Shown piece by piece: positions 14,452 through 33,957 of a stretch of DNA of 35,265 nt. Below the pieces are notes generated by a model, which was given only the letters and a program-made list of their open reading frames with translations, was not told where the DNA came from and did no database searches. The first letter of the stretch is position 1; each line of letters opens with the position of its first letter. Made by a program: the position numbers and the translations under genes. Source of the DNA: an uncultured Oscillospiraceae bacterium (GTDB taxonomy: Bacteria; Bacillota; Clostridia; Oscillospirales; Ruminococcaceae); NCBI GenBank assembly GCA_949298535.1, contig CASFXA010000005.1:1-35265 (forward strand), in the 5' to 3' direction.

Positions 14452-15729
14452 TTACTGCTGGGGATAGATGCCGCTGGGGCTGTAGCGATAGAACTGCGTC
14501 ACACCGTACTGGGCCGCAGCTTCCTCCTGACTGACCACGTCGGCGGCGGTATAGGTGCGGTTGCCTCCTCCGGAGACAGCGGTGGAGGTGTAGGCCTGCA
14601 CCATGGCGGCCAGCTGCAGAGGCGTGTCCTCCCCGCCGGCGGCGGCCAAAGTGTCTTCACAGACGGCCAGCACTGCGGTGATGGTCCCGGCGGGATCCAG
14701 CAGCGGATCAGAGAGGGTCAGTTCCTCGGTGGTGATCCCGGCGCCAAATTGCTCCGGACGGACATCCAGCATGGCCCGCCCCGCGGCAGCCAGGATCAGT
14801 TCCGGCTGTTCCCCGCAGCGGATGGTGCTGAGCCGGGACAGAGAGGTCAGGTTCATCACCGGCCACACCTCTCCGCCATTGGCCGCAGCGGCAGCCTCCG
14901 CCTGGGTGACAAACTCCGCCAGCACCGCCGATTTATCCAAAGGACCAGTGTTGCCGTAGGTAGCCAGTTCCAGGGAGTAGCCTTCGGGAAACTGAAGGCC
15001 GTCCAGCAGGATATACTCCACGCCCCGGCGGCTGGCTTCCTCCACCAGCTGCACCAAATAATCCCTGGCCATGGGATGATTGGGATTGAGCCAGGGAACG
15101 CCCCCTGCCGATTGGGCGTTGTCAATCCAGTTGATCTGGCTGTCCATATATTTGACCGCCGCGTCGTACATGGAAGCGGTGGAGACATGATCCCGGAAGG
15201 TGTACAGAACCCCCACCGGGGTCATCTCATGCTCCAGAATGGCAGCCGTCACCGTCTCCAGAGAGTAGGGTGCGGAGGAAAGGGCCAGATTGTTGGCCAC
15301 GATCTCCAGCTGACTGTCATACAGCACCACGCCGGTGGCGTCCTTCAGTTCAAAGGCCACCCCCTCTATCCCCTGAGCCTTGAGGCTGTCCAGCGCCGCG
15401 GAAAGAGAAGCGGGATCCAGCAGGGTGTAGGAGGGCAGATAGGCGGTTTTTTCCGGCAGGCCGGTGTGTTCCCCGCTCTCCGGCACCGCGGGAACGGAGG
15501 GGACGGAAGACTGGGAGGATTCGGAAGAAACCGACGGCTCCTCCTGAGATGATCCGAAATTGGGCAGCTGAAAGCCGCTGACCAGCCGGTTGATGGGATC
15601 AAAGGCGAACCAGCCCACCGCGCCAAAAATCAAAATAATGGCGACAATGAGCAAATTACGAAAGATCCGGGCGTTTCGCTGCCGGCGGCGGTCATAGTTG
15701 TACCGCTTGATTTTAACAAATTTTGCCAA
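14452..15729 (-). CDS. Membrane-anchored putative glycoside hydrolase (DUF4015-like)
   Basis: A 425-residue protein with a basic cytoplasmic N terminus, one membrane helix (about 25-43), a Ser/Pro/Glu linker (about 60-90) and an extracellular (beta/alpha)-barrel-like domain. The barrel has features of DUF4015 glycosidases related to GH13: LKAQGIEGVAFELKDATGVVLYDS, the strand MTPVGVLYTFRDH, and after it NPNHPMARDYLVQLVEEASRRGVEYILLDGLQFP, where the Asp/Glu residues would act on sugars. Members are thought to act on cell-surface or polysaccharide sugars; the substrate is unknown. The start is TTG 15729, supported by GGGAGG 8 nt upstream and the Lys-rich N terminus. It follows the RnfA-type gene by 63 nt with no terminator between, so it is probably the last gene of that operon. 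Confidence 0.8.
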   Translation of the reverse strand: MAKFVKIKRYNYDRRRQRNARIFRNLLIVAIILIFGAVGWFAFDPINRLVSGFQLPNFGSSQEEPSVSSESSQSSVPSVPAVPESGEHTGLPEKTAYLPSYTLLDPASLSAALDSLKAQGIEGVAFELKDATGVVLYDSQLEIVANNLALSSAPYSLETVTAAILEHEMTPVGVLYTFRDHVSTASMYDAAVKYMDSQINWIDNAQSAGGVPWLNPNHPMARDYLVQLVEEASRRGVEYILLDGLQFPEGYSLELATYGNTGPLDKSAVLAEFVTQAEAAAAANGGEVWPVMNLTSLSRLSTIRCGEQPELILAAAGRAMLDVRPEQFGAGITTEELTLSDPLLDPAGTITAVLAVCEDTLAAAGGEDTPLQLAAMVQAYTSTAVSGGGNRTYTAADVVSQEEAAAQYGVTQFYRYSPSGIYPQQ

Positions 15730-15792: not shown

Positions 15793-16389
15793 TCACATCC
15801 CCAGCTGATGCCCCACGATGCCGAACAGCGCCAGGGAGATCAGGCCGAAGTAGATCAGCGAGATGGGCGCCCCCTGAAGGGAAGCCGGCACCTGACTGAA
15901 CTGCAGCTGACGATCCAGGGTATGGTGAATCAGCAGCGCCAGCAGATAACCGCCCCCCACTCCCACGCCATAGGCCAGGGTTTGGGGCAGATCGTAAGAG
16001 CTGAAGCACAGCACCAGCATGGTGCCCAAAGGCACGAAGGAACAGGCCAGCGCCACCCGGGGATGGAGGGGAGGACAGCGGTGAAGCAGGTCCAGCCGGC
16101 GGCAGAGAAAATAGAAGGGGAGGAACATCGCCAGATAAAGGGCCAGGCAAAGAGCGGGTCTGGTTAAAAGGGGAATATTCCACAGACGTTCCGATACCAG
16201 ACGCCCCAGCCAGCCCCCCAGGGCCGCCAACAGGGACAACAAAGACAACACGATTCCACGCTGGAAAACCGCCCGGGGAGATTCTGAGCTGTCCAGCAGA
16301 ATGCCGTGACCGAAGGCCCGGGAAAACACCACGTTTTCTCCCAAGGCGGCGGTGAGCCCCACAGCCAAAAGGGACCAAAACAATTCCAT
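15793..16389 (-). CDS. Rnf-Nqr domain membrane subunit, RnfA-like (divergent)
   Basis: A 198-residue, six-helix membrane protein, close in size to RnfA/NqrE (about 195). Conserved anchors are GENVVFSRAFG (17-27, for the canonical NNFVLSRFLG) and the C-terminal block VPASLQGAPISLIYFGLISLALFGI, matching VPKAFRGTPIALITAGLLSLAF. In known Rnf/Nqr complexes RnfA and RnfE together hold a [2Fe-2S] cluster through a Cys in the first motif (GICPFLG) and one in TTNC. Here the first motif reads GHGILLD with no Cys, and the second region reads VPLGTMLVLC, with Cys128 two residues out of register. The protein may therefore keep the fold without the cluster. ATG 16389 has AAGGAG 12 nt upstream. It follows the RnfE-like gene by 32 nt. 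Confidence 0.8.
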   Translation of the reverse strand: MELFWSLLAVGLTAALGENVVFSRAFGHGILLDSSESPRAVFQRGIVLSLLSLLAALGGWLGRLVSERLWNIPLLTRPALCLALYLAMFLPFYFLCRRLDLLHRCPPLHPRVALACSFVPLGTMLVLCFSSYDLPQTLAYGVGVGGGYLLALLIHHTLDRQLQFSQVPASLQGAPISLIYFGLISLALFGIVGHQLGM

Positions 16390-16421
16390 GGTTGGGATCT
16401 ACTCCTTTCAGACAAGGGGCC

Positions 16422-17141
16422 TCAGCGGGCTCGATGGCGGTTGAGAACGGCGTACAGACTGCGGAAATACCGCAGCAGGCCGATGAACAGTCCCAGAACA
16501 ATCAGCCCGAAGAAGGGCATCTTCGCCCCTTCCAGGGAGAAGGAAGAGGGCAGCAGGGAAATCCCCCAGATCTGACCGTAGGCCAGCAGCTCCCGCACCA
16601 GGCCCACCATTCCGGTGACCAGGGCGAACAGCAGCACAAACTGAATGGCCCAGCCTGCGGCTCCCTGAGCGGTACGGACCTTTTTCTCAGAAAAAACCGC
16701 CGCTACCACCGAGTAGGAGGCGAAGAGAAACAGGTACAGCCCCAGAGAATCCAGCGCCAGAGGGAACAGCCGGGGCAGCAGCACCGCCCCCAGACAGGCC
16801 ATTGCCATGGAGGAAAGGGTACACAGGGGAACCTCCACCCATCGGGGAAGGTCCGCTTTTTCCCGCAGGCAGAAGCGAAGCAGGGAGGCGGGCAGCAGGG
16901 TCATCAGCAGCGCCAGCGTCATGGCTGCGCTGTTTTTCAGGGTGGTGGCTCCCACCGCCGCGAAGGGCCCCGCCAAAGCGGTGATGGCCACAATGCCGCT
17001 GCGGGCGAAAAAGGCGTCCTCGTGGGGATCCCTGGAAGGAAAAGCCGTCTCCCCCGGGACGCCCTTCCCCTTAGGCCTGCGCCGGGGCGTCGTCATCGTC
17101 CGGTCCGAAGTCGTCAGATGAGCGGGTTCCCGCTTTTTCAT
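16422..17141 (-). CDS. Rnf-Nqr domain membrane subunit, RnfE-like (divergent)
   Basis: A 239-residue protein: a basic hydrophilic N-terminal extension (1-45) followed by six membrane helices of the Rnf-Nqr family. Recognisable are the position of GLCPALAVTTS, here ALAGPFAAVGATT (55-67), and the segment LVTGMVGLVRELLAYGQIWG, matching the RnfE ending TLIGAIREILGSGTLFG. Both Cys residues that hold the membrane [2Fe-2S] cluster in known complexes are missing: the first is replaced in LAGP, and the VNCIILGRAEAF region reads FASYSVVAAVFSEK. I choose ATG 17141, with AAAGGAGG 7 nt upstream, which makes the gene overlap the end of the RnfD gene by 71 nt. Inner ATG 17096 lacks a ribosome binding site. 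Confidence 0.78.
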   Translation of the reverse strand: MKKREPAHLTTSDRTMTTPRRRPKGKGVPGETAFPSRDPHEDAFFARSGIVAITALAGPFAAVGATTLKNSAAMTLALLMTLLPASLLRFCLREKADLPRWVEVPLCTLSSMAMACLGAVLLPRLFPLALDSLGLYLFLFASYSVVAAVFSEKKVRTAQGAAGWAIQFVLLFALVTGMVGLVRELLAYGQIWGISLLPSSFSLEGAKMPFFGLIVLGLFIGLLRYFRSLYAVLNRHRAR

Positions 17142-18105
17142 AGGTGCGCCTCCTTTCTCTGGTGCAATAGGCTTCCGCCGCCAGATCGAAAAGAGGAACA
17201 AAGGCGTTCATCAGCAGCAGCGCGAAGGGAAACATCATTTCATAACCGCCGTAGCGGGTGAGCAATACACAAAGGATGCCCGAAAAAATAGCATATAGTC
17301 CTTTGGCGACGCTCCGCATGGGAGTAGTCACCGGGTCAGTGAAAAGAAACACCCCAAAAAACACCACCGGGGTGAAAAACAGCTCGTTGACCACCGCCGT
17401 CAGCCCCTCAGACATCCCCCGGGGAAACAGCCAGCTGCAAAGGGCCACGGTCCCCAGCATCAGCAGGGGCTGGAGGAGATGGATGGTCCGCCGGGCAGCC
17501 AGATAGAGACCGCAGGCGGCGATCACCAGCACATTAGTGGTACCCATAGGGCCGGAAATCACCCCCTGCAGAAGGGTGCTGACATCCAGGCGGGGCACGC
17601 CGCCGATATACAGGGTGTAGGCGGGGCCGGAGGTGAGAGGGGCGGTAACAGCCCCCACCGTCTCCAAAGGCGTGAAGGGAGTGGGGTAGGCGAACATGGC
17701 GCTGCTCCAGCAGACAATGGCGAAGGCCACTCCCGCGGCAGCAGGGTTGAAAATATTGCTCCCCAAACCGCCAAAGGTCTGCTTGGCGATACAGATGGCA
17801 AACAAGCCGGCGATCACCGGTACGCGGTAGGGAATGGAAGCGGGCATCATCAGAGGCAGCAGCATCCCGGTGACCACCGGCGACAGATCAGTCAGCTGCG
17901 GTCTGTGTCCCCGCAGCAGGGTGCAGACCAAATCCGCCGCCACGCAGGTGACGACTGAAACCGCCCCCAGCAGCAGGGCCCGCTGTCCATAGTAATACCA
18001 CGCCATGAAATAAACCGCCGCCAAAGTGACGATCATATCCAGCATGACGGAGCGGTTATTGCGGATTCCCCGAATATGGGGGGCCACAGGGGAGGAAAGT
18101 TTCAC
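17071..18105 (-). CDS. rnfD: RnfD-like membrane subunit of Rnf-type complex
   Basis: A 344-residue polytopic protein. The family is clear from SSPVAPHIRGIRNNRSVMLD at the N terminus, SPVVTGMLLPLMMP, KQTFGGLGSNIFNPAAAGVAF (109-129), FLFTDPVTTP near residue 265, and the ending RYGGYEMMFPFALLLMNAFVPLFD. Canonical RnfD carries a covalently bound FMN on the Thr of an S/T-G-A-T/S motif; the aligned region here is GAVTAPLTSG (151-160), which lacks it. The usual GxxGE(T/V)S is GPMGTTN. The C-terminal tail is very acidic (DDFGPDDDDAPAQA). Start is GTG 18105, with AAGGAGG 8 nt upstream, overlapping the RnfC stop as GTGA. The fold is intact but flavin binding is doubtful. Confidence 0.88.
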   Translation of the reverse strand: MKLSSPVAPHIRGIRNNRSVMLDMIVTLAAVYFMAWYYYGQRALLLGAVSVVTCVAADLVCTLLRGHRPQLTDLSPVVTGMLLPLMMPASIPYRVPVIAGLFAICIAKQTFGGLGSNIFNPAAAGVAFAIVCWSSAMFAYPTPFTPLETVGAVTAPLTSGPAYTLYIGGVPRLDVSTLLQGVISGPMGTTNVLVIAACGLYLAARRTIHLLQPLLMLGTVALCSWLFPRGMSEGLTAVVNELFFTPVVFFGVFLFTDPVTTPMRSVAKGLYAIFSGILCVLLTRYGGYEMMFPFALLLMNAFVPLFDLAAEAYCTRERRRTYEKAGTRSSDDFGPDDDDAPAQA

Positions 18106-19169
18106 GGCGTCTCCCTCCTTCCCTGGCGGTATTCCTTGATGGTTTGGGCGATTTCCAGCCGTGCGGGACACTCAAAGCTGCAGCACATACATTCGATGCA
18201 GTGTTTATAATCCAGCGCTTCCGCTTCCTGTTCCAGCCCCCGTTGGATCGCCCGATACAGCATCATGGGGTTGAGCCCCATGGGGCACACCTGGACACAC
18301 CGGCCACAACGGATGCAGGGGGAACGGTCTGTTTGTTCCTTGTCCCGGAAGGCCAGCACCCCTCTGGTGGTTACAGATACAAGGGCTTGATCGGTATCGG
18401 AGATGGACTGACCGGTCATGGAGCCGCCCACCACCACCCGGGTAGGGGTATCGGTGAGGCCGCAGCGATCCAGCACATCGGTGACCGGAAGCCCCAGGCT
18501 CACCTCCAGGTTGCAGGGACGGGCGACACAGTTGCCCCCCACGGTGAGGAAGGCGGTGGTTTGGGCAATCCCCTGAAACACCGCCCGATGAAGATGGATC
18601 AGGGCGCAGCTGCCCAGATAAAGGTAGCGTTTGCCTTCCTCCTCCACCAGGCTGTAGCCGCTGCGGATCTCGGTGGGATAGAAGCCGCCGATGCGCCGCA
18701 CCCGCACCCCCTCAATGGACCGGGGAATTTTCACTTCCAGATCCGCCATGTTCCGGTAGATCTCGATGACGCCGCTGTCGGCGGCGGAGATGGCCTTGCA
18801 GGCCAGGCGCAGCCCGCTGGCACATTCTTCCCGGAAGTGAAGCAGCGGACCCAACTGACTGGAAAGATAAGGCTCGTCGTCCACCGCGTCCACCCGGATG
18901 GAGACCCCCTTGGCCACGCAGGCCCGAAGTTTTTTGTATAACGGCAGGCCGTCCCGCTCGTCGATAATATGGGCGGCCTTGGCGGCGCGGATGATTTCAA
19001 AGGGCTCCACCTGGTCCAGGTCCTGATAAACCGGCTGCCCCTCCACCCGCAGAGGCTCCGGGGTATTGGTCAGCAGATCCAGCGGTTGAGACAGGGCTGG
19101 CTCCTTATGCTGCTCCATGGGAATCCCCCGGTGAAAAACCCCCACAGGGGGCAATTTGAGATGCTTCAT
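18102..19169 (-). CDS. rnfC: RnfC-like subunit with two [4Fe-4S] motifs
   Basis: A 355-residue soluble subunit, shorter than usual RnfC (over 430). Residues 1-30 keep the N-terminal LPPVGVFHRGIP; the middle shows an SLBB-like segment (VGGNCVARPCNLEVSLGLPV, 210-229) and VVVGGSMTGQSI, equivalent to the GGPMMG stretch. Two ferredoxin-type motifs are complete: Cys285/288/291/295 and Cys324/327/330/334, each followed by Pro. The Gly-rich FMN/NADH motif of RnfC (GxGGAGFPT) is replaced by AHIIDERDGLP (66-76), so NADH and FMN binding is uncertain. ATG 19169 has AAGGAG 6 nt upstream. It starts the Rnf-like gene series, 51 nt after rpe. Confidence 0.87.
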   Translation of the reverse strand: MKHLKLPPVGVFHRGIPMEQHKEPALSQPLDLLTNTPEPLRVEGQPVYQDLDQVEPFEIIRAAKAAHIIDERDGLPLYKKLRACVAKGVSIRVDAVDDEPYLSSQLGPLLHFREECASGLRLACKAISAADSGVIEIYRNMADLEVKIPRSIEGVRVRRIGGFYPTEIRSGYSLVEEEGKRYLYLGSCALIHLHRAVFQGIAQTTAFLTVGGNCVARPCNLEVSLGLPVTDVLDRCGLTDTPTRVVVGGSMTGQSISDTDQALVSVTTRGVLAFRDKEQTDRSPCIRCGRCVQVCPMGLNPMMLYRAIQRGLEQEAEALDYKHCIECMCCSFECPARLEIAQTIKEYRQGRRETP

Positions 19170-19220: not shown

Positions 19221-19895
19221 TCACTCCCCGGCGGCCTGCCGGGCCAGCTGCCGCAGAAGGGAGACCTCGGCGGCGTAATCCTCCTTGCCGAAGATGGCGG
19301 AGCCGGCTACAAAGCAATTGGCTCCCGCCTGGGCGCACAACCCAATGGTGTCCCTGGCGACGCCGCCGTCCACCTGCACCACCAGATCCTTTCTGTCCAT
19401 CCGGTCCGCCTCCCGACGGATGGCGGCGACCTTGGGCATCATCTCCCCCCGGAACTTTTGTCCGCCAAAGCCGGGCTCCACCGTCATCACCAGCGCCAGA
19501 TCCGCCTGTTCCAGCCAGGGAAACACCGTTTCCGCGGGGGTACCGGGCCGCAGGGAAATCCCCGCCTTGAGGCCCAGACGATGGATGGCGTCAATGGTTT
19601 CTCCCGGATTTCCCTCCGCTTCCAGATGGAAGGTAATCAGATCCGCTCCGGCTTTGGCCAGGTCCTCCAGGTACCGTTGAGGCTGAGAGATCATAATATG
19701 CACATCAAAAAAAAGGGAAGAACATTTCCTCAGAGAAGCGATCACCGGCATCCCGAAGGAAATGTTGGGAACAAAATGGCCGTCCATCACGTCCAGATGG
19801 AGCATATCCGCTCCGGCGGCCTGAATCGCAGCGGTTTCCCGGTCCAGACGGGAAAAATCCGCGGCCAACAGCGAGGGGGAGATGAGCATCTCCAT
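19221..19895 (-). CDS. rpe: Ribulose-phosphate 3-epimerase
   Basis: A 224-residue TIM-barrel enzyme that interconverts ribulose 5-phosphate and xylulose 5-phosphate in the pentose phosphate pathway. Diagnostic motifs are ISPSLLAADFSRL at the start, LHLDVMDGHFVPNISFG (about 33-49, metal His and Asp), FDVHIMI with a second metal His, LVMTVEPGFGGQKF, and VQVDGGV with the second catalytic Asp, then VAGSAIF for phosphate. ATG 19895 follows AGGAGG by 10 nt. A strong promoter lies 62 nt upstream and the RnfC-like gene follows 51 nt after the stop, so rpe appears to lead the Rnf-like operon; that pairing is unusual. Confidence 0.96.
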   Translation of the reverse strand: MEMLISPSLLAADFSRLDRETAAIQAAGADMLHLDVMDGHFVPNISFGMPVIASLRKCSSLFFDVHIMISQPQRYLEDLAKAGADLITFHLEAEGNPGETIDAIHRLGLKAGISLRPGTPAETVFPWLEQADLALVMTVEPGFGGQKFRGEMMPKVAAIRREADRMDRKDLVVQVDGGVARDTIGLCAQAGANCFVAGSAIFGKEDYAAEVSLLRQLARQAAGE

Positions 19896-19956
19896 GGTTG
19901 TGGCACCTCCTGCAATTGAAAAGAATAGGAAATGAAAAAAGCCTGTAATCGTTCTT

Positions 19957-19985
19957 ATTTTACCGTATTCGGGGCAAAAGGTCAA
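19957..19985 (-). promoter_or_regulatory. Promoter of rpe and probably of the Rnf-like operon
   Basis: On the minus strand TTGACC (19985-19980), exactly 17 nt, TAAAAT (19962-19957). No other clear promoter was found before the Rnf-like genes. Confidence 0.7.
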
Positions 19986-20102: not shown

Positions 20103-21230
20103 ATGCTGACACGGAGCTTTCATCCCGGACAACGTCCCCACTCCCTGCTGGGCTTCGGCGCCATGCGCCTGCCGGTGGACGGGGAAGGAAAGATTTGCTA
20201 TGAAAAGGCCAAGGCTATGGTGGACCGGGCCATTGCCGGCGGAATCAACTACTTTGATACCGCCTATCCCTATCACCAGCAGACTTCGGAGCGCTTTCTT
20301 GGCAGGGCTTTGGCGGATTATCCCCGGGAAAGCTATCTGCTGGCGGACAAGCTGCCGGTTTGGCTGCTGGAAAAGGAGGAGGACGTTCCGGGACTTTTCG
20401 CTCAGCAGCTGGAGCGATGTCAGGTGGACCGGTTCGACTGTTACCTCTGCCATTCCCTGGATCGGGAGCGGCTGGAGATCATCCAGAAATACCGGGCCCT
20501 GCCTCAGCTGGAACAGCTGAAAAAAGAGGGGAAAATTGGTCTGCTGGGCTTTTCTTTCCATGACAAGCCGGAGGTGCTGCGCAGGGCGCTGGAACTGTAT
20601 CCCTGGGATTTTTGTCAGCTTCAGCTCAATTATGCCGACTGGGCCATGGAGGACGCCAGACAGCTCTATGAATTGACAGTGGAGTTCGGGGTGCCGGTTA
20701 TTGTGATGGAACCGGTTCGGGGCGGTTTTCTGGCGCAGCCTCCCGAGGAAGTGGCCCGGATCCTCCGTCAGGGCGGCGAACGCTCCATGGCCAGCTGGGC
20801 CCTCCGCTTCGCGGCCAGCCTGCCCAATGTCAGCCTGGTGCTCAGCGGCATGACCACCATGGAACAGTTGGAGGATAACCTGTCCACCTTCAGCGATCCG
20901 GGACTTCCCCTGACCGAAAAAGAGCAGCAGCTGGTCAAAGAGGCGGGAGAGACGCTCAAAGGCTTGCGGAGCATCCCTTGCACCGGCTGCCGGTACTGTA
21001 TGCCCTGCCCCATGGGGGTGAATATTCCCGAGGCGTTTCATATCTACAATTCAGTCAAGCTCTTTGGAAAGGGGCTGGGAGGCTACCGGGAACTGATGGA
21101 GCAAAAGGCTGCCGCCGATCAGTGCGTCCGGTGCGGCGCCTGCGTCCGGGCGTGTCCTCAGAGCCTGACCATTCCCCGGCTGCTGGAGGAGCTGCATCAG
21201 CAGCTGACCCAAGAGCTGGCAAAAAAATAG
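20103..21230 (+). CDS. Aldo/keto reductase with C-terminal [4Fe-4S] ferredoxin domain
   Basis: A 375-residue two-part oxidoreductase. Residues 1-280 are an aldo/keto reductase barrel with the catalytic set Asp52 and Tyr57 (FDTAYPYH), Lys83 (LADKLP) and His117 (CHSL). Residues 285-375 hold two ferredoxin-type motifs: CTGCRYCMPCP and CVRCGACVRACP, each able to bind a [4Fe-4S] cluster. This fusion is widespread in anaerobes; members are predicted to move electrons between ferredoxin or another carrier and a carbonyl substrate, but physiological substrates are not established. ATG 20103 has AAGGAG 10 nt upstream. It is divergent from rpe and monocistronic with its own promoter and terminator. Confidence 0.92.
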   Translation: MLTRSFHPGQRPHSLLGFGAMRLPVDGEGKICYEKAKAMVDRAIAGGINYFDTAYPYHQQTSERFLGRALADYPRESYLLADKLPVWLLEKEEDVPGLFAQQLERCQVDRFDCYLCHSLDRERLEIIQKYRALPQLEQLKKEGKIGLLGFSFHDKPEVLRRALELYPWDFCQLQLNYADWAMEDARQLYELTVEFGVPVIVMEPVRGGFLAQPPEEVARILRQGGERSMASWALRFAASLPNVSLVLSGMTTMEQLEDNLSTFSDPGLPLTEKEQQLVKEAGETLKGLRSIPCTGCRYCMPCPMGVNIPEAFHIYNSVKLFGKGLGGYRELMEQKAAADQCVRCGACVRACPQSLTIPRLLEELHQQLTQELAKK

Positions 21231-22476: not shown

Positions 22477-24813
22477 TCAAAGTCCCCAAATTTCCCTGGC
22501 ATATTGAATAATCGTCCGGTCACTGGAGAAGGGACCGGCATGGGCGATATTCATCAGACACTTGTGGGCGAACTCTCCCCGGTTCTGATAATCCCGGTTG
22601 GTCCGCAGCCGGGCGTCGCAGTAGGAGGCAAAGTCCAGCAGCAGATCGTATTGATCCGGCTTGTGCCAGCTGGCCCCCTTCATCAGGGAATCGTACAGCT
22701 CCCGGAACATTCCGGTGCCGCCGTCGTTGAAGGTTCCATCCACCAAAGATTCCACCACCCGCCGCAGCCGGGGCTGTGCCTCGCAGAGGCCCTCCGGGGT
22801 GTCGGTGCGGCCAGGGTCCTGAATCTCCTCCACTGTGGCGCCGAAGATATAATTGTTTTCCGCGCCTGCCTGCTCCACAATTTCGATGTTGGCCCCGTCC
22901 AGAGTCCCCAGAGTGACGGCGCCGTTGAGCATAAACTTCATGTTGCTGGTGCCGCTGGCTTCGGTGCCGGCGGTGGAGATCTGCTCCGACACATCGGCGG
23001 CGGGGATCAGTTTTTCGGCGTAGGAAACGTCGTAATTCTGGACGAAAAGCACCTGCATCAGGTCCTTCATCTCCGGGTCGCCGTTGATGAGTCGGGCCAC
23101 CTCCCCGATGTATTTGATGATCCCTTTGGCCCGGTAATAGCCGGGGGCCGCCTTGGCGCCAAAGAGATAGGCGGTTGGCTGGAAATCGGTGATTCTCCCT
23201 TCCTTCAGCCCCCAGTAGGCGTCCAAAATGGAGAAAGCGTTGAGGAGCTGCCGTTTGTACTCATGAAGGCGCTTGATCTGCACATCAAAGAGGAAATCTT
23301 CCCGCAGCTCAAAGCCCTCCCGCCTGGCCACATAATCCCGCAGCTGCCGCTTTTTCTCCTCCTTCACCTGCTGGAACCGGGCGATTACCGCTCCGTCCTC
23401 CAGCACCGGAACCAGCTGTTCCAGCTGACCGAGATCGGTGAGCCAGCCGTCTCCTATTTCATCGGTGATGAGGGAGGACAGCTCCGGATTGCAGAGGGCC
23501 AGCCAGCGCCGCTGGGTGATGCCGTTGGTCTTGTTGCTCAGCCGCTCCGGCCACAGGGCGTACCATTCCCTGAGGGTTTGCGCCTTGAGAATATCGGTGT
23601 GGATGCGGGCAACGCCGTTGGTGGAGTGAGTGGCGTAAACAGCCATCCGGGCCATATGAACCCGGGTTCCGTCCAGGATGAAATAGGGCTCCGCTTCTTT
23701 GCCGGTGATGCCCCGGTCCCGCAGCTCCCGCCGCAGCCGGTTGTTCAGCAGCACGATATAAGGATACACCTGGGGAACCACCGACAGCAGCAGTTCCACA
23801 TCCCATTTTTCCAACGCCTCCGCCATGATGGTGTGATTGGTGTAGGCGAACACTCCCTGCACCAGAGGAAAGGCCTCCTCAAAGGAGAGGAGATGCTCCT
23901 CCATCAGCAGCCGCAGCAGCTCCGGAATGGAGACGGTGGGATGGGTGTCGTTGAGCTGGATGGCCACCTCCTCCGACAGATGGGTGAAGTCCTCTCCCCG
24001 GCGGGCGATATACCCCCGAAGGATGCTCTGGAGGGAGGCGCTGGAGAAGAAATACTGCTGTTTGAGGCGCAGACGCTTTCCCTCCAGGGTGTCATCATTG
24101 GGGTAAAGAACGGCGGAGAGGGCTTCCGCCCGGTTCCGGTCCCTATAGGCGGCGTCGTAATCCTGACGGTTGAAAGCGGTGAGGTCCAGTTCCTCCACCG
24201 GCTCCGCCTGCCACAGCCGCAGGGTGTTCACCAGCCCCTTTTGACCGTAGCCGATGACCGGCATATCGTAGGGCACCGCCCGCACCTGCTGGTCCCGGAA
24301 GGAAATCAGAATGCTCTCCTCTTCCCGCCGGACGCTCCAGGGGTCTCCAAAACGGAGCCAGTCGTCAGGATATTCCCGCTGAAAGCCGTCTTCAATTTTC
24401 TGACGGAACAAGCCGTACCGGTAGCGGATGCCATAGCCGTCCAGGGGCACCCCCTGGGTGGCGGCGGAATCCAGAAAACAGGCGGCCAGCCGTCCCAGCC
24501 CGCCGTTGCCCAGGGCGTCGTCCTCGATCTCCTCCAGAATGTTCAGGGGGAGATGATGCCGTTCCAGCCATTGATTCCACTCCTCCAAAAGCCCCAGATT
24601 CATCAGATTGGCGGAGACCACACGCCCCAGGAGAAATTCCGCCGAAAAGTAGCAGGCCCGCTTTCCTTCCGGCTGCGCCTGCCAGCGGGGCATCAGCAGC
24701 TTCATGGCCGCCTGGGAAACAGCGGTATATAGTTCCTTGGGGCTGGCCGTTTCCGGGGATATGCCCAGCCGTGCCAGCTCCCGGTCTATTTCTTTGGAAA
24801 AGGTGTTGTCCAT
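22477..24813 (-). CDS. glgP: Glycogen/maltodextrin phosphorylase
   Basis: A 778-residue GT35 enzyme that uses phosphate to release glucose 1-phosphate from alpha-1,4-glucans. Clear motifs are CYFSAEFLLGR near residue 55, EIEDDALGNGGLGRLAACFLD near 95, QLNDTHP, and the PLP site EASGTSNMKFMLNGAVTLGT with the cofactor Lys626. Length is a little short of E. coli GlgP (815), as in clostridial enzymes with a shorter N terminus lacking regulatory extension. The start is ATG 24813, which has AAGGAGG 9 nt upstream; an ATG seven codons earlier lies before that site. Its start follows the malQ stop by a single base, so the two are translationally linked and act in the same maltodextrin/glycogen pathway. 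Confidence 0.97.
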   Translation of the reverse strand: MDNTFSKEIDRELARLGISPETASPKELYTAVSQAAMKLLMPRWQAQPEGKRACYFSAEFLLGRVVSANLMNLGLLEEWNQWLERHHLPLNILEEIEDDALGNGGLGRLAACFLDSAATQGVPLDGYGIRYRYGLFRQKIEDGFQREYPDDWLRFGDPWSVRREEESILISFRDQQVRAVPYDMPVIGYGQKGLVNTLRLWQAEPVEELDLTAFNRQDYDAAYRDRNRAEALSAVLYPNDDTLEGKRLRLKQQYFFSSASLQSILRGYIARRGEDFTHLSEEVAIQLNDTHPTVSIPELLRLLMEEHLLSFEEAFPLVQGVFAYTNHTIMAEALEKWDVELLLSVVPQVYPYIVLLNNRLRRELRDRGITGKEAEPYFILDGTRVHMARMAVYATHSTNGVARIHTDILKAQTLREWYALWPERLSNKTNGITQRRWLALCNPELSSLITDEIGDGWLTDLGQLEQLVPVLEDGAVIARFQQVKEEKKRQLRDYVARREGFELREDFLFDVQIKRLHEYKRQLLNAFSILDAYWGLKEGRITDFQPTAYLFGAKAAPGYYRAKGIIKYIGEVARLINGDPEMKDLMQVLFVQNYDVSYAEKLIPAADVSEQISTAGTEASGTSNMKFMLNGAVTLGTLDGANIEIVEQAGAENNYIFGATVEEIQDPGRTDTPEGLCEAQPRLRRVVESLVDGTFNDGGTGMFRELYDSLMKGASWHKPDQYDLLLDFASYCDARLRTNRDYQNRGEFAHKCLMNIAHAGPFSSDRTIIQYAREIWGL

Positions 24814-24814
24814 T

Positions 24815-26344
24815 TTACGGTTCCTCCTTCTCATCCGTTGGGGAAATCAGCCGTCCGTACACCAGCGCCAGGCGCTTCATCCGGGCGGCCAGGTCCTCTG
24901 TCAATTGTCCCGGCAGCAGCCGCCACATCCAGTTTTCCCCCAAAGTGGAGGGGGTATTGGTGCGGGCGGTGTCGTCCAGCTCCAGCCAGTCCTGCATCTG
25001 AATGACGGCGGTATCAGCCACACTTGCCATAGCGCAGCGGATCACCGCCCGGGGCAGCTGCTTATTGGTGCGGACATTCAGATATTCCCGGGCGAAGGCC
25101 AGAGATTTCCGGTCCATCCGTCCGAAAAGGCCCACGAGGGTTTGGTTGTCATGGGTGCCGGCGTAGACCACCGAATTTTTTTCGTAACAATGGGGCAGAT
25201 AGGGGTTGCTGCTGCCGCTGTCAAAGGCGAAGGACAGCACCTTCATCCCGGGATAACCGCTGCGCTGCTGCAAACGGCGCACCGGGGCAGTCACCACCCC
25301 CAGATCCTCGGCGATGATCCGCCCCTGTCCCAGGGTATCGCTGAGGGCTGCCAGCAGCTTGTCCCCGGGTCCCGGCATCCATCGCCCTTCCACGGCGGTG
25401 TCGTTGCCGGCGGGGATGGAATAATAGTTGACGATGCCGATAAAATGGTCGATGCGGATGATGTCGTACAGCTCCCCCTGGGCGGCCATCCGGGCACGCC
25501 ACCAGGAAAAGCCGTCCTTCTCCATCACCTCCCACCGGTAGAGGGGATTGCCCCACAGCTGCCCGGTGGCGGAAAAGAGATCCGGCGGCACCCCTGCCAC
25601 ATGGGTGGGCCGGCGATCCTCATCCAGCTGGAACTGCTCCCCGTGTACCCACACATCGGCGCTGTCCATGGCCACATAGATGGGGATGTCCCCAATGATG
25701 GCGATCCCCCGGCTGTTGGCGTATTCCTTGACCTGGCGCCACTGACGGAAAAAGTGATATTGGCAGAAGGCCCAGAAGGCCATCTCTTCCCCAAGCTCCT
25801 TTTTGGCCCGGTCCAGCGCTTTGGGCTGCCGCAGCCGCAGGGGATCCGGCCACTGCTGCCAGGACCGGCCCTCATACCGCTCCTTCAGGGCCATGTAGAG
25901 GCAGTAGTCCTCCAGCCAGTTCTTCCGGACGTCCATGAAGGAAAGAAATTCCGGATCCTTCCGGGTCCACCGGGAGAAGGCCAGCCGCAGCAGGGAAAAG
26001 CGGTTTTGATAGATCAGACCGTAGTCCACCTGGGCGGGGTTCTTTCCCCAATCCCACTGCTCCCCTTCGCCCGGCAGCAGCAGGCCATCCTCCTCCAGCA
26101 CCCCCGGATCGATGAAATAAGGGTTGCCGGCAAAGGCGGAAAAACTTTGGTAAGGGCTGTCCCCATAGCTGGTAGGCCCCAGGGGCAGCACCTGCCAGCA
26201 GGTTTGTCCCGCCGCCGCCAGGAAATCCACAAATTCCAGCGCCGCCCGCCCCAGGGAACCAATGCCCCAGGGGGAGGGAAGACTGGCCACCGGCAGCAGC
26301 ACCCCGCAGCGCCGGGGAAGGGAAGGTTGTTTTTTCAGTCTCAT
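24815..26344 (-). CDS. malQ: 4-alpha-glucanotransferase
   Basis: A 509-residue GH77 amylomaltase that transfers glucan segments between malto-oligosaccharides, giving longer chains for phosphorylase. Family motifs: RCGVLLPVASLPSPWGIG at the start, SYGDSPYQSFSAFAGNPYFI, GDIPIYVAMDSADVW, YDIIRIDHFIG with the nucleophile Asp, IIAEDLGVV with the acid/base Glu, and YAGTHDNQTLVG with the third Asp. Length is standard for bacterial MalQ of this type. ATG 26344 has only a weak ribosome binding site (GGCGGTGA). glgP follows after 1 nt; the YihY-like gene lies 55 nt upstream on the same strand. Confidence 0.96.
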   Translation of the reverse strand: MRLKKQPSLPRRCGVLLPVASLPSPWGIGSLGRAALEFVDFLAAAGQTCWQVLPLGPTSYGDSPYQSFSAFAGNPYFIDPGVLEEDGLLLPGEGEQWDWGKNPAQVDYGLIYQNRFSLLRLAFSRWTRKDPEFLSFMDVRKNWLEDYCLYMALKERYEGRSWQQWPDPLRLRQPKALDRAKKELGEEMAFWAFCQYHFFRQWRQVKEYANSRGIAIIGDIPIYVAMDSADVWVHGEQFQLDEDRRPTHVAGVPPDLFSATGQLWGNPLYRWEVMEKDGFSWWRARMAAQGELYDIIRIDHFIGIVNYYSIPAGNDTAVEGRWMPGPGDKLLAALSDTLGQGRIIAEDLGVVTAPVRRLQQRSGYPGMKVLSFAFDSGSSNPYLPHCYEKNSVVYAGTHDNQTLVGLFGRMDRKSLAFAREYLNVRTNKQLPRAVIRCAMASVADTAVIQMQDWLELDDTARTNTPSTLGENWMWRLLPGQLTEDLAARMKRLALVYGRLISPTDEKEEP

Positions 26345-31956: not shown

Positions 31957-33957
31957 TCAAAACAACAGCGCAAGGTGGTACACGCAAAAGGCGACACACC
32001 AGGCGATGACGGTTTGAGTGGCCATAATGCCGGTGGCTTTGATTCCGGAGCCATATTCCCGGCGGATGGCGGCGAAAGCAGCCACGCAGGGCATATACAG
32101 CAGCGTGAACACCAGGAAAGCCAGAGCGGCCTTGGGGGCGAAGATCTCCCCCAGCGCCACTGCCAGACCGGCGCTGTCGGCGGCTCCGGTGAGAACGGTG
32201 AGGGTGCTGACCACCGCCTCCTTGGCGGTCAGGCCGGTGACCAGGGCGGTGGAAGCCATCCAGTTGCCAAAGCCCAGGGGGGCGAAGATGGGGGCGATCA
32301 GGGAGCCCAGCATGGCCAGCATACTGTGGGCGCTGTCCTCCACCACATTGAAGCGGGTATCAAAGCTCTGGAGGACCCAGATGACAATAGTGGCCACAAA
32401 AATGACGGTGAAGGCCTTATGAATGAAATCCTTTGCCTTATCCCACATATGCAGGGCGATGGTTTTGGCGGAGGGAAGGCGATAGGCGGGCAGCTCCATG
32501 ACAAAGGGGATGGGTTGTCCCCGGAACAACGTGCTTTTCAGCGCAAGACCGTACAGGATGGCCACAACCATTCCCAGGAGATAGAGAAAAATCATCACCA
32601 GGGCGGCGTTGTCCGGGAAAAAAACCGAGGTAAACAGACCATAAACCGGCAGTTTTGCGCTGCAGGACATGAAGGGGGTGAGGATAATGGTCATCTTCCG
32701 GTCCCGCTCGCTGGAAAGGGTCCGGGAAGACATCACCGCCGGAACGGTGCAGCCAAAGCCGATGAGCATGGGGACAAAGGATTTTCCGGACAGTCCGATC
32801 TTTCGCAGCAGCTTGTCCATGACAAAGGCCACACGGGCCATATAACCGCTGTCCTCCAGCAGGGAGAGAAAGAAAAAGAGGATGAGAATGGTGGGCAGAA
32901 AGGAGAGAACGCTGCCCACGCCGGCAAAGATGCCGTTGATAATCAAGGATTGCAGCACCGGATTGATGCCATAGGCTGTCAGACCGGCATCCACCAGGGC
33001 AGTCACCTGATCCACCGCCAGAGCCATCAAATCACTGAGGAAGGAGCCAAACACCCCGAAGGTAAACCAGAACACCAGGGACATAATCAGCAAAAACAGG
33101 GGGATGGCCCAAACCGGATGGGTCAGCAGATTGTCGATTTTCACCGAGCGCTGCTGTTCCCGGGTTTCCTGAGGCTTGTGGACGGTGTCCCTGGTGAGCT
33201 TTTCAATATAGGTATACCGCATATCTGCCAGGGCTGCTTCCCGGTCGGTCCCCAGGGCCTGCTCCATCTCGGTGGTGATATGGACCAGCGTTTCCAGCTC
33301 GTTCTGGTTGAGGTGGAGGGCCTCAATGGTGGGCTGGTCATCTTCCACCAGCTTGGTGGCGGCAAAACGCACCGGCATCTTGATGGCCTGGGCATGGTCC
33401 TCAATGAGGTGGGCGATGCCGTGGATGGCCCGATGGACCTCCCCGGTGCAAAAATCCAGCCGGGCGGGGAGGATATGCTGTTCCCCCACCCGGAGAGCCT
33501 GGTCCACCAGCTCGGAGATGCCCTCGTTTTTGCTGGCGGAGATGGGGACAACCGGAATCCCCAGATCCTGGGCAAGGCGTTGGACGTCAATGGAACCGCC
33601 GGAGGAGGTCACCTCGTCCATCATGTTCAGCGCCAGCACCATGGGCAGCTGCAATTCCATCAGCTGAAGGGTCAGATAGAGATTTCGCTCGATGTTGGTG
33701 GCGTCCACAATATTGATAATGCCATCCGGCTTTTCCTTGAGCAAAAAGTCCCGGGTCACCACCTCCTCGGCGGTGTAGGGGGAGAGGGAATAAATCCCCG
33801 GCAGATCCACCACGGTGCTGTCGGTGCGGCGGATACGCCCCTCCTTCTTTTCCACTGTCACCCCGGGGAAGTTGCCCACGTGCTGATTGGAGCCGGTCAG
33901 CTGGTTGAACAGGGTGGTTTTGCCGCAGTTCTGGTTGCCGATGAGGGCGAAAATCAT
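31957..33957 (-). CDS. feoB: Ferrous iron transporter B
   Basis: A 666-residue membrane GTPase that takes up Fe(II). The N-terminal G domain shows G1 GNQNCGKT (7-14), G3 DLPG (51-54) and G4 NMMD (111-114), then a helical regulatory domain to about residue 270. The membrane part carries the Gate motifs, including a Cys in GFGCTVPAVMSSR and the second in FMSCSAKLPVY, and a last GLTAKEAVVSTL segment. It is shorter than E. coli FeoB (773) as usual in Gram-positives. ATG 33957 overlaps the feoA stop as ATGA with AAGGAGG 7 nt upstream, so translation is coupled. Confidence 0.98.
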   Translation of the reverse strand: MIFALIGNQNCGKTTLFNQLTGSNQHVGNFPGVTVEKKEGRIRRTDSTVVDLPGIYSLSPYTAEEVVTRDFLLKEKPDGIINIVDATNIERNLYLTLQLMELQLPMVLALNMMDEVTSSGGSIDVQRLAQDLGIPVVPISASKNEGISELVDQALRVGEQHILPARLDFCTGEVHRAIHGIAHLIEDHAQAIKMPVRFAATKLVEDDQPTIEALHLNQNELETLVHITTEMEQALGTDREAALADMRYTYIEKLTRDTVHKPQETREQQRSVKIDNLLTHPVWAIPLFLLIMSLVFWFTFGVFGSFLSDLMALAVDQVTALVDAGLTAYGINPVLQSLIINGIFAGVGSVLSFLPTILILFFFLSLLEDSGYMARVAFVMDKLLRKIGLSGKSFVPMLIGFGCTVPAVMSSRTLSSERDRKMTIILTPFMSCSAKLPVYGLFTSVFFPDNAALVMIFLYLLGMVVAILYGLALKSTLFRGQPIPFVMELPAYRLPSAKTIALHMWDKAKDFIHKAFTVIFVATIVIWVLQSFDTRFNVVEDSAHSMLAMLGSLIAPIFAPLGFGNWMASTALVTGLTAKEAVVSTLTVLTGAADSAGLAVALGEIFAPKAALAFLVFTLLYMPCVAAFAAIRREYGSGIKATGIMATQTVIAWCVAFCVYHLALLF

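Follow-up and report, generated by a model that had tools for sequence, protein, structure and literature searches.

The window, as we call the whole stretch of DNA analysed here, comprises 35,265 nucleotides of contig CASFXA010000005.1 (C5) from an uncultured Oscillospiraceae bacterium, whose assembly (GCA_949298535.1) amounts to 2.54 Mb and is 86% complete. It carries four consecutive genes for relatives of the C, D, E and A subunits of the Rnf complex (Table 1; hereafter C, D, E and A), and our subject is this set, which retains the Rnf scaffold and lacks many of its cofactor residues.

Table 1. Features of the window (positions in nucleotides)
Feature	Position	Strand	Length (aa)	Remarks
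DUF4015 (PF13200) protein, putative glycoside-hydrolase-like	14452..15729	-		PF13200 E=2.7e-21; hydrophobic segment at N-terminus
A, RnfA/NqrE-like membrane protein	15793..16389	-	198	
E, RnfE/NqrD-like membrane protein	16422..17141	-	239	ATG at 17141, preceded by AAAGGAGG; reading frame open up to 17201
D, RnfD/NqrB-like membrane protein	17071..18105	-	344	GTG start
C, RnfC-like protein	18102..19169	-	355	two CxxCxxCxxxCP [4Fe-4S] motifs; SLBB domain
rpe, ribulose-phosphate 3-epimerase	19221..19967	-		51 bp upstream of C
Aldo/keto reductase	20118-21230	+		C-terminal 4Fe-4S dicluster domain; adjoins rpe
Carbohydrate phosphorylase and 4-alpha-glucanotransferase	22477-26344	-		adjoining genes
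FeoB ferrous iron transporter	31957-33957	-		

The assignment of the four genes, already made in the initial annotation, agrees with their coordinates and with their Pfam and TIGR01945 matches. D matches PF03116 and no other family (E=7.8e-68), while E and A match PF02508 (E=1e-5 and 4.5e-8 respectively), both above the curated cut-off. C matches TIGR01945 (rnfC) with E=4.8e-41 and 140.7 bits, under the cut-off of 245.95 bits, and the N-terminal part of RnfC is absent from it. Sequence search groups C, D and A with solved Rnf and NQR subunits, E being the weakest match. All nine PDB matches at E <=0.001 to the predicted structure of E (mean predicted local distance difference test score, pLDDT, 83) are nevertheless RnfE or NqrD, with template modelling scores of 0.59-0.67 by query length, and the five best PDB matches to the predicted structure of C (mean pLDDT 86) are all RnfC.

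Intergenic gaps are short or negative throughout the run rpe-C-D-E-A-DUF4015, and a purine-rich, Shine-Dalgarno-like site precedes each of the five genes downstream of rpe. Such gaps and ribosome-binding sites make it likely that the whole run is read as one transcript. The unit of four genes, sound as first read, extends to the DUF4015 gene. The latter is a downstream neighbour, a partner by linkage only, and its protein is presumably exported; rpe is a conserved neighbour and not an evident functional part.

Neither rnfB nor rnfG lies between or beside the window genes, as was apparent at first reading, and no gene for NqrF or NqrC is found among the window neighbours examined (NqrF was not searched for in relatives). 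This is not a case of an incomplete Rnf, a possibility we reject, since contig C126 of the same assembly carries a complete canonical rnfCDGEAB with the usual cysteines. The window C-D-E-A is a separate paralogue rather than an Rnf that has lost parts in this genome. A separate rnfB/rnfG locus, which the initial annotation had named as a potential argument against a distinct complex, thus exists, but it belongs to a complete Rnf that has its own full complement of A, C, D and E.

We examined 151 loci, picked from the best matches and not randomly, of which 20 were dropped as D- or A-end duplicates, leaving 131 distinct loci (123 variant and 8 canonical). Outside the window's family, scores of the variant models do not by themselves split variant from canonical, and loci were therefore classed by their neighbours and residues. 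In the D tree, from which two reduced genomes discussed below (G068 and G087) were left out, 117 variant sequences form one clade with a support of 0.998, as against nine canonical sequences. The nine canonical sequences, a small sample drawn from the window's order in every case except L157, likewise form a clade in the trees of A (0.903), C (0.987) and E (0.997).

The rnfG model has no match in the 123 variant loci, whereas rnfG is present in the canonical ones, and the rnfB model has just two weak matches (28 and 33 bits) in the same 123, 11 of which are shorter than 6 kb. Of the residues that hold the [2Fe-2S] cluster between A and E, the cysteines of E are found at neither position in any of 118 variants, and the window E is without both. 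The first cysteine of RnfA (GxCP) is present in a single variant of 123 and absent in the window. The second is present by alignment in 64 of 123, with the window and L028 ambiguous: at the TNC position an ungapped comparison gives the window A Ser-Phe where RnfA has Asn-Cys, MAFFT gives Ala-Cys, and a shift of two residues decides. The reported loss of cysteines from both subunits therefore stands for both sites in E and for GxCP in A, with the TNC position of A dependent on that shift. On these alignments the variants have no A/E cluster site of four cysteines.

D and C show losses too. The covalent flavin mononucleotide (FMN) motif of D is missing from the window, in agreement with the first reading, and no Thr stands at the aligned column; Thr occurs there in 9 of 117 variants, and Ala-Thr or Ser-Thr in all eight canonical loci. 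The Gly-rich loop of RnfC that serves FMN and nicotinamide adenine dinucleotide (NAD) is found in none of 69 variant C proteins, as against 9/9 canonical ones. Where all nine have a GGA-FP loop the window C reads IIDERDG, the alteration originally noticed, and DE-x-DG is present in 54 of the 69. Variant C thus has no recognisable FMN/NAD loop. Both [4Fe-4S] motifs, by contrast, are kept in the window, as first described, and in 68/69 variant C proteins (in L115 the last CP is CL). The U-shaped electron path of Rnf is thus interrupted at four points, namely its entry (RnfB), the A/E cluster, the periplasmic shuttle (RnfG) and the FMN of D, and the set can no longer be a ferredoxin:NAD+ oxidoreductase of the Rnf kind.

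The initial summary, a complex without the usual membrane cofactor residues, was nonetheless too broad, as it missed a riboflavin site in D. The literature is cited here by PubMed Central (PMC) number. In NqrB, riboflavin is contacted by Thr162, Asn200, Asn203 and Asp346 and by the backbone of Gly198, Ala205 and Phe342 (PMC9325719, PMC10643135). Carried over to variant D by alignment to NqrB chain 7xk3_B, five contacts are all present in the window D, as T79, G115, N117, N120 and D257. The variants retain D, E and A as a membrane core, and those with C additionally keep its two [4Fe-4S] motifs and, towards the cytoplasm, the riboflavin site of D. With C, what can remain is a short cytoplasmic wire, from the two [4Fe-4S] clusters to riboflavin.

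The riboflavin site is associated with C. All five contacts (with D or E accepted at the last) are present in 66 of 69 loci with C, compared with 13 of 47 loci without it, the latter count excluding L161, which is cut too short to show C. Among the 25 D sites that are at least 95% conserved in the presence of C, the riboflavin contacts are among the most eroded in its absence: exact permutation gives 0.0005 for the five contacts, 0.002 for the four side chains and 0.001 with Ala205 added, and the Phe342 site falls under the 95% line and is not eroded. The eroded positions were noticed before the list of contacts was looked up, and Gly198 makes its contact through the backbone. Conservation at the contacts averages 0.62 and 0.50 in the two large C-less clades, compared with 0.89 and 0.91 for the remaining conserved sites.

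C has been lost at least three times on the D tree, read without node supports around the losses, with D, E and A retained each time; the rest of D stays conserved in these lineages, while the riboflavin contacts are often eroded. A C gene hidden elsewhere in such genomes was considered and rejected. In 18 C-less genomes searched whole (17 plus G072, the source of L034; five of the 18 less than 90% complete) no variant C was found, the best match to the variant-C profile being at most 172 bits. Three C-containing genomes used as controls give 542-546 bits, but the diverged variant C of G102 gives just 240. In the 15 C-less genomes with a match of at least 79 bits, that match lies on the contig of rnfB or of a canonical RnfA/E match, and G076, G079 and G043 (83-89% complete) have no RnfC-like match above 31 bits.

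The set also persists where genomes are strongly reduced. In G068 (0.7 Mb) and G087 (0.9 Mb), both 97% complete, D, E and A are intact and occupy three separate places; neither genome has a match to the variant-C profile or to RnfC, a canonical RnfA/E or a detectable canonical Rnf. In G102 (1.0 Mb, 94% complete) C, D and E lie together, and A is beside rpe elsewhere. That genomes of this size hold on to all three genes, although they are scattered, suggests that D, E and A have an important role in common. Their separate neighbourhoods in G068 and G087 are loci L219, L220, L221, L222, L158 and L225, all of the same family, and in both genomes the E gene is near what we take to be efp and a cysteine-desulfurase-like gene, names that are our own assumption. 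A wider sample comprised 15 family genomes in which rnfB stayed under the cut-off. Thirteen have D and PF02508 matches with variant-like scores and no PF02508 match at canonical level (only three of these are at least 90% complete, and a part of the 13 was read in sequence); of the others, G080 has neither and G089 has a canonical set. D is in pieces in G128, and G037 has two further weak D pieces.

Could the window set be a duplicate in decay? Many cofactor residues are gone, and the initial annotation had entertained a degenerate complex, while itself citing good ribosome-binding sites and intact frames to the contrary. That counter-argument is upheld. Between the window and L028 the ratio of nonsynonymous to synonymous substitution (dN/dS, NG86) is 0.054 for C, 0.115 for D, 0.123 for E, 0.140 for A, 0.091 for DUF4015 and 0.094 for rpe, and the set is conserved across families and in reduced genomes. 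All four genes are genuine and intact, and purifying selection acts on them. We therefore reject decay, which is contradicted by dN/dS and conservation and to which we attach next to no credence. The other option offered at the outset was a distinct complex built on the same scaffold. It has good support from the monophyly of D (0.998), the recurring gene order, a dN/dS of 0.05-0.14 and the reduced genomes without detectable canonical Rnf.

Another possibility is that the window genes supply alternative subunits to the canonical complex and join its RnfB and RnfG. The partners are at hand, as the operon is in the genome and rnfB is above the cut-off in 116 of 146 family genomes. However, A, D and E are without residues that the path needs, and G068 and G087, at their estimated 97% completeness, keep the variant with no detectable canonical Rnf. 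We regard such mixed assembly as very improbable.

The reading we favour, to which we would give about an even chance, is that the window set is an Rnf paralogue no longer able to be a ferredoxin:NAD+ oxidoreductase, in which D, E and A form an ion- or solute-moving core and the remaining redox arm is regulatory and dispensable. The conserved function would sit in D-E-A and need no electrons. The core might move an ion or solute across the membrane either by the alternating access known from RnfA/E or by way of D. Where C is present, electrons from a cytosolic reductant would reach the C clusters and riboflavin, which could act as a redox gate, modulator or modest driver, and in C-less forms the core would work without redox control. 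Movement of an ion is suggested by the scaffold and by the Asn of the Na+ site of RnfA (N112 in Acetobacterium woodii; PMC11889175), kept in 117 of 123 variant loci. The earlier suggestion of a device that uses only the RnfC clusters needs amending on two counts, as retention of C goes with retention of the riboflavin site in D, and C is missing altogether from many lineages, so that the C clusters cannot be what the core needs.

Several observations weigh against the reading of D-E-A as a transport core with a regulatory arm. The Na+-site Asn of RnfA is gone in the window's own genus, window included, and the matching Asn of RnfE is kept in only 74 of 116 variants. RnfD has been argued not to carry Na+ (PMC11889175), and the case for transport is made from the scaffold. 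Three Faecalibacterium D proteins, the only variant loci with a Ser-Thr context at the covalent-FMN column, have Thr there in Ser-Ser-Thr. As for the arm, a catalytic part in redox chemistry would also account for Fe-S and riboflavin sites that stay conserved between widely diverged sequences. The third loss of C, in the single-member lineage L034, left all five riboflavin contacts in place, as they are in the 13 C-less loci counted above and in D of G068 and G087, so that loss of C and loss of the riboflavin site are not tightly tied. The permutation treats sites and not lineages, and three C losses are counted. Erosion of the riboflavin site is thus associated with the absence of C clearly by sites and loosely by lineages.

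A catalytic role would be that of a small reductase, passing electrons from a cytosolic donor through the two C clusters to riboflavin in D and on to an acceptor in the membrane or at its interface, with E and A as scaffold. In NqrB, riboflavin hands electrons to quinone, which provides a model. Both redox sites are conserved together where C is present, and a distance of 11.7 A separates riboflavin from the nearer of the C clusters in the Rnf of Clostridium tetanomorphum (PMC9588780). On the other hand, no acceptor is known, and D-E-A persists although C is absent in 47 loci and, assembly-wide, in all 18 C-less genomes searched and in G068 and G087. A reductase therefore cannot be the core function, and we consider this explanation unlikely. 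If the transport reading is followed through, a redox pump would have been turned once, anciently in the order, into a transport machine with an essential D-E-A core that needs no electron transfer; its arm would first have shrunk to riboflavin and the C clusters and later have been shed on at least three occasions, leaving the bare core that is scattered over three places in genomes of 0.7-0.9 Mb. To this fuller history we give somewhat short of an even chance.

The variant (C)-D-E-A is found in several families of the window's order (f1, f5, f7, f9, f15 and f24), mostly between rpe and the DUF4015 gene. Many gut bacteria of the Faecalibacterium kinship carry it, often alongside a normal Rnf respiratory pump. 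Named hosts include Faecalibacterium prausnitzii, Anaerotruncus colihominis, Clostridium methylpentosum, Massilioclostridium, Massiliimalia and Hydrogenoanaerobacterium. A relative of the window A is present in at least 133 of 148 sampled family genomes, though weak matches may be canonical RnfA, and the best 30 matches of a class-wide search add 29 loci, 6 of them variant (all from the same order) and 23 canonical; weaker variants may lie outside the order, beyond those 30 matches. Within the stretches examined, some of which stop at contig ends, 91 of the 123 variant loci have both rpe and DUF4015 as neighbours, 19 rpe only, 9 DUF4015 only and 4 neither.

DUF4015 itself occurs in 111 of 146 family genomes. 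For 97 of these both places are among the matches listed, and in 95 of the 97 no more than 2.5 kb separates it from the A relative. This linkage invites another explanation, a cell-envelope machine in which the DUF4015 enzyme, presumably exported, would depend on D-E-A for an ion gradient or a substrate, whether or not C is present. It would suit such a role that DUF4015 occurs fused to a YkyA domain, itself found elsewhere fused to polysaccharide deacetylase domains (PMC12700454). However, 14 genomes have DUF4015 with no A relative among the matches listed, 21 of 118 genomes with a listed A match (some of them canonical) have no match to DUF4015, and neither do G068 and G087; the linkage may simply be inherited gene order. 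We hold the envelope machine to be less likely still than the reductase.

How does the set compare with known systems? With Rnf (RnfABCDGE; A. woodii, 9eri; C. tetanomorphum, 7zc6) it shares homologous subunits in the order C-D-E-A, the two [4Fe-4S] motifs of C and the riboflavin site of D. It differs in having no RnfB or RnfG within its gene cluster and no A/E cluster ligands, covalent-FMN motif of D or Gly-rich loop of C, and C itself is often absent. With Na+-NQR it shares homologues of NqrB, NqrD and NqrE and, in the window, the five riboflavin contacts of NqrB, but the variant cluster is without NqrC or NqrF, the A/E cysteines are lost, and C has Fe-S motifs, unlike NqrA, which is without a redox cofactor (PMC12174285). 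The 'NQR/RNF-like' systems of Meheust et al. 2021 (PMC8238504; also PMC10979944) are likewise reduced derivatives of the scaffold in which the flavinylation Thr of the D-like subunit is not conserved. In those, however, D is fused to a PF00175 NAD domain and accompanied by an RnfG/NqrC-like flavinylated partner, whereas the window has neither and retains E and A; its set is a different reduction.

A C-less form has very probably been named before. In Faecalibacterium duncaniae A2-165, rnfDEA (CG447_09840-830) is one of two putative rnf operons and was assigned to an NADH:ferredoxin oxidoreductase (PMC10781979); its name and the rpe-D-E-A-DUF4015 loci of F. prausnitzii (L153 and L156) suggest that it is the variant. 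That paper draws it as part of the oxidoreductase and, in its accessible passages, does not discuss cofactor loss. An rnfCDEAB, B included, is mentioned in PMC11456536 and PMC10215811. We found no description of cofactor loss in the variant clade in the open PMC literature, so that within those papers the name rnfDEA is already known and the loss is apparently new.

Variant rnfC, rnfD and rnfDEA genes should accordingly not be counted as an energy-conserving Rnf in gut bacteria such as Faecalibacterium. The pump scaffold may have been reused for a task that no longer needs full electron flow. The coupling of electrons to ions in Rnf and NQR is in dispute, Na+ being placed in D (PMC9588780) or in A/E (PMC11889175). 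In the natural series from full Rnf, through C with riboflavin, to bare D-E-A, evolution has in effect made the deletions from which the conducting part might be identified.

Some minor features of these loci may be recorded. We considered whether another gene of the same strand lies between rpe and C or D and rejected this, as the recurrent open reading frame there sits on the opposite strand. It is present in 13 mapped loci, the window not being among them, and the two such genes tested (L032, 11405-11977, and L059, 9898-10461) both encode MecA (PF05389). Open reading frames that cluster with the aldo/keto reductase of the window occur in 11 mapped loci, window included. Finally, in two loci of family f7, L163 (7857-9374) and L164 (7852-9363), a charged, low-complexity N-terminal extension brings E to about 500 residues, as against roughly 200-315 in other variant E proteins.

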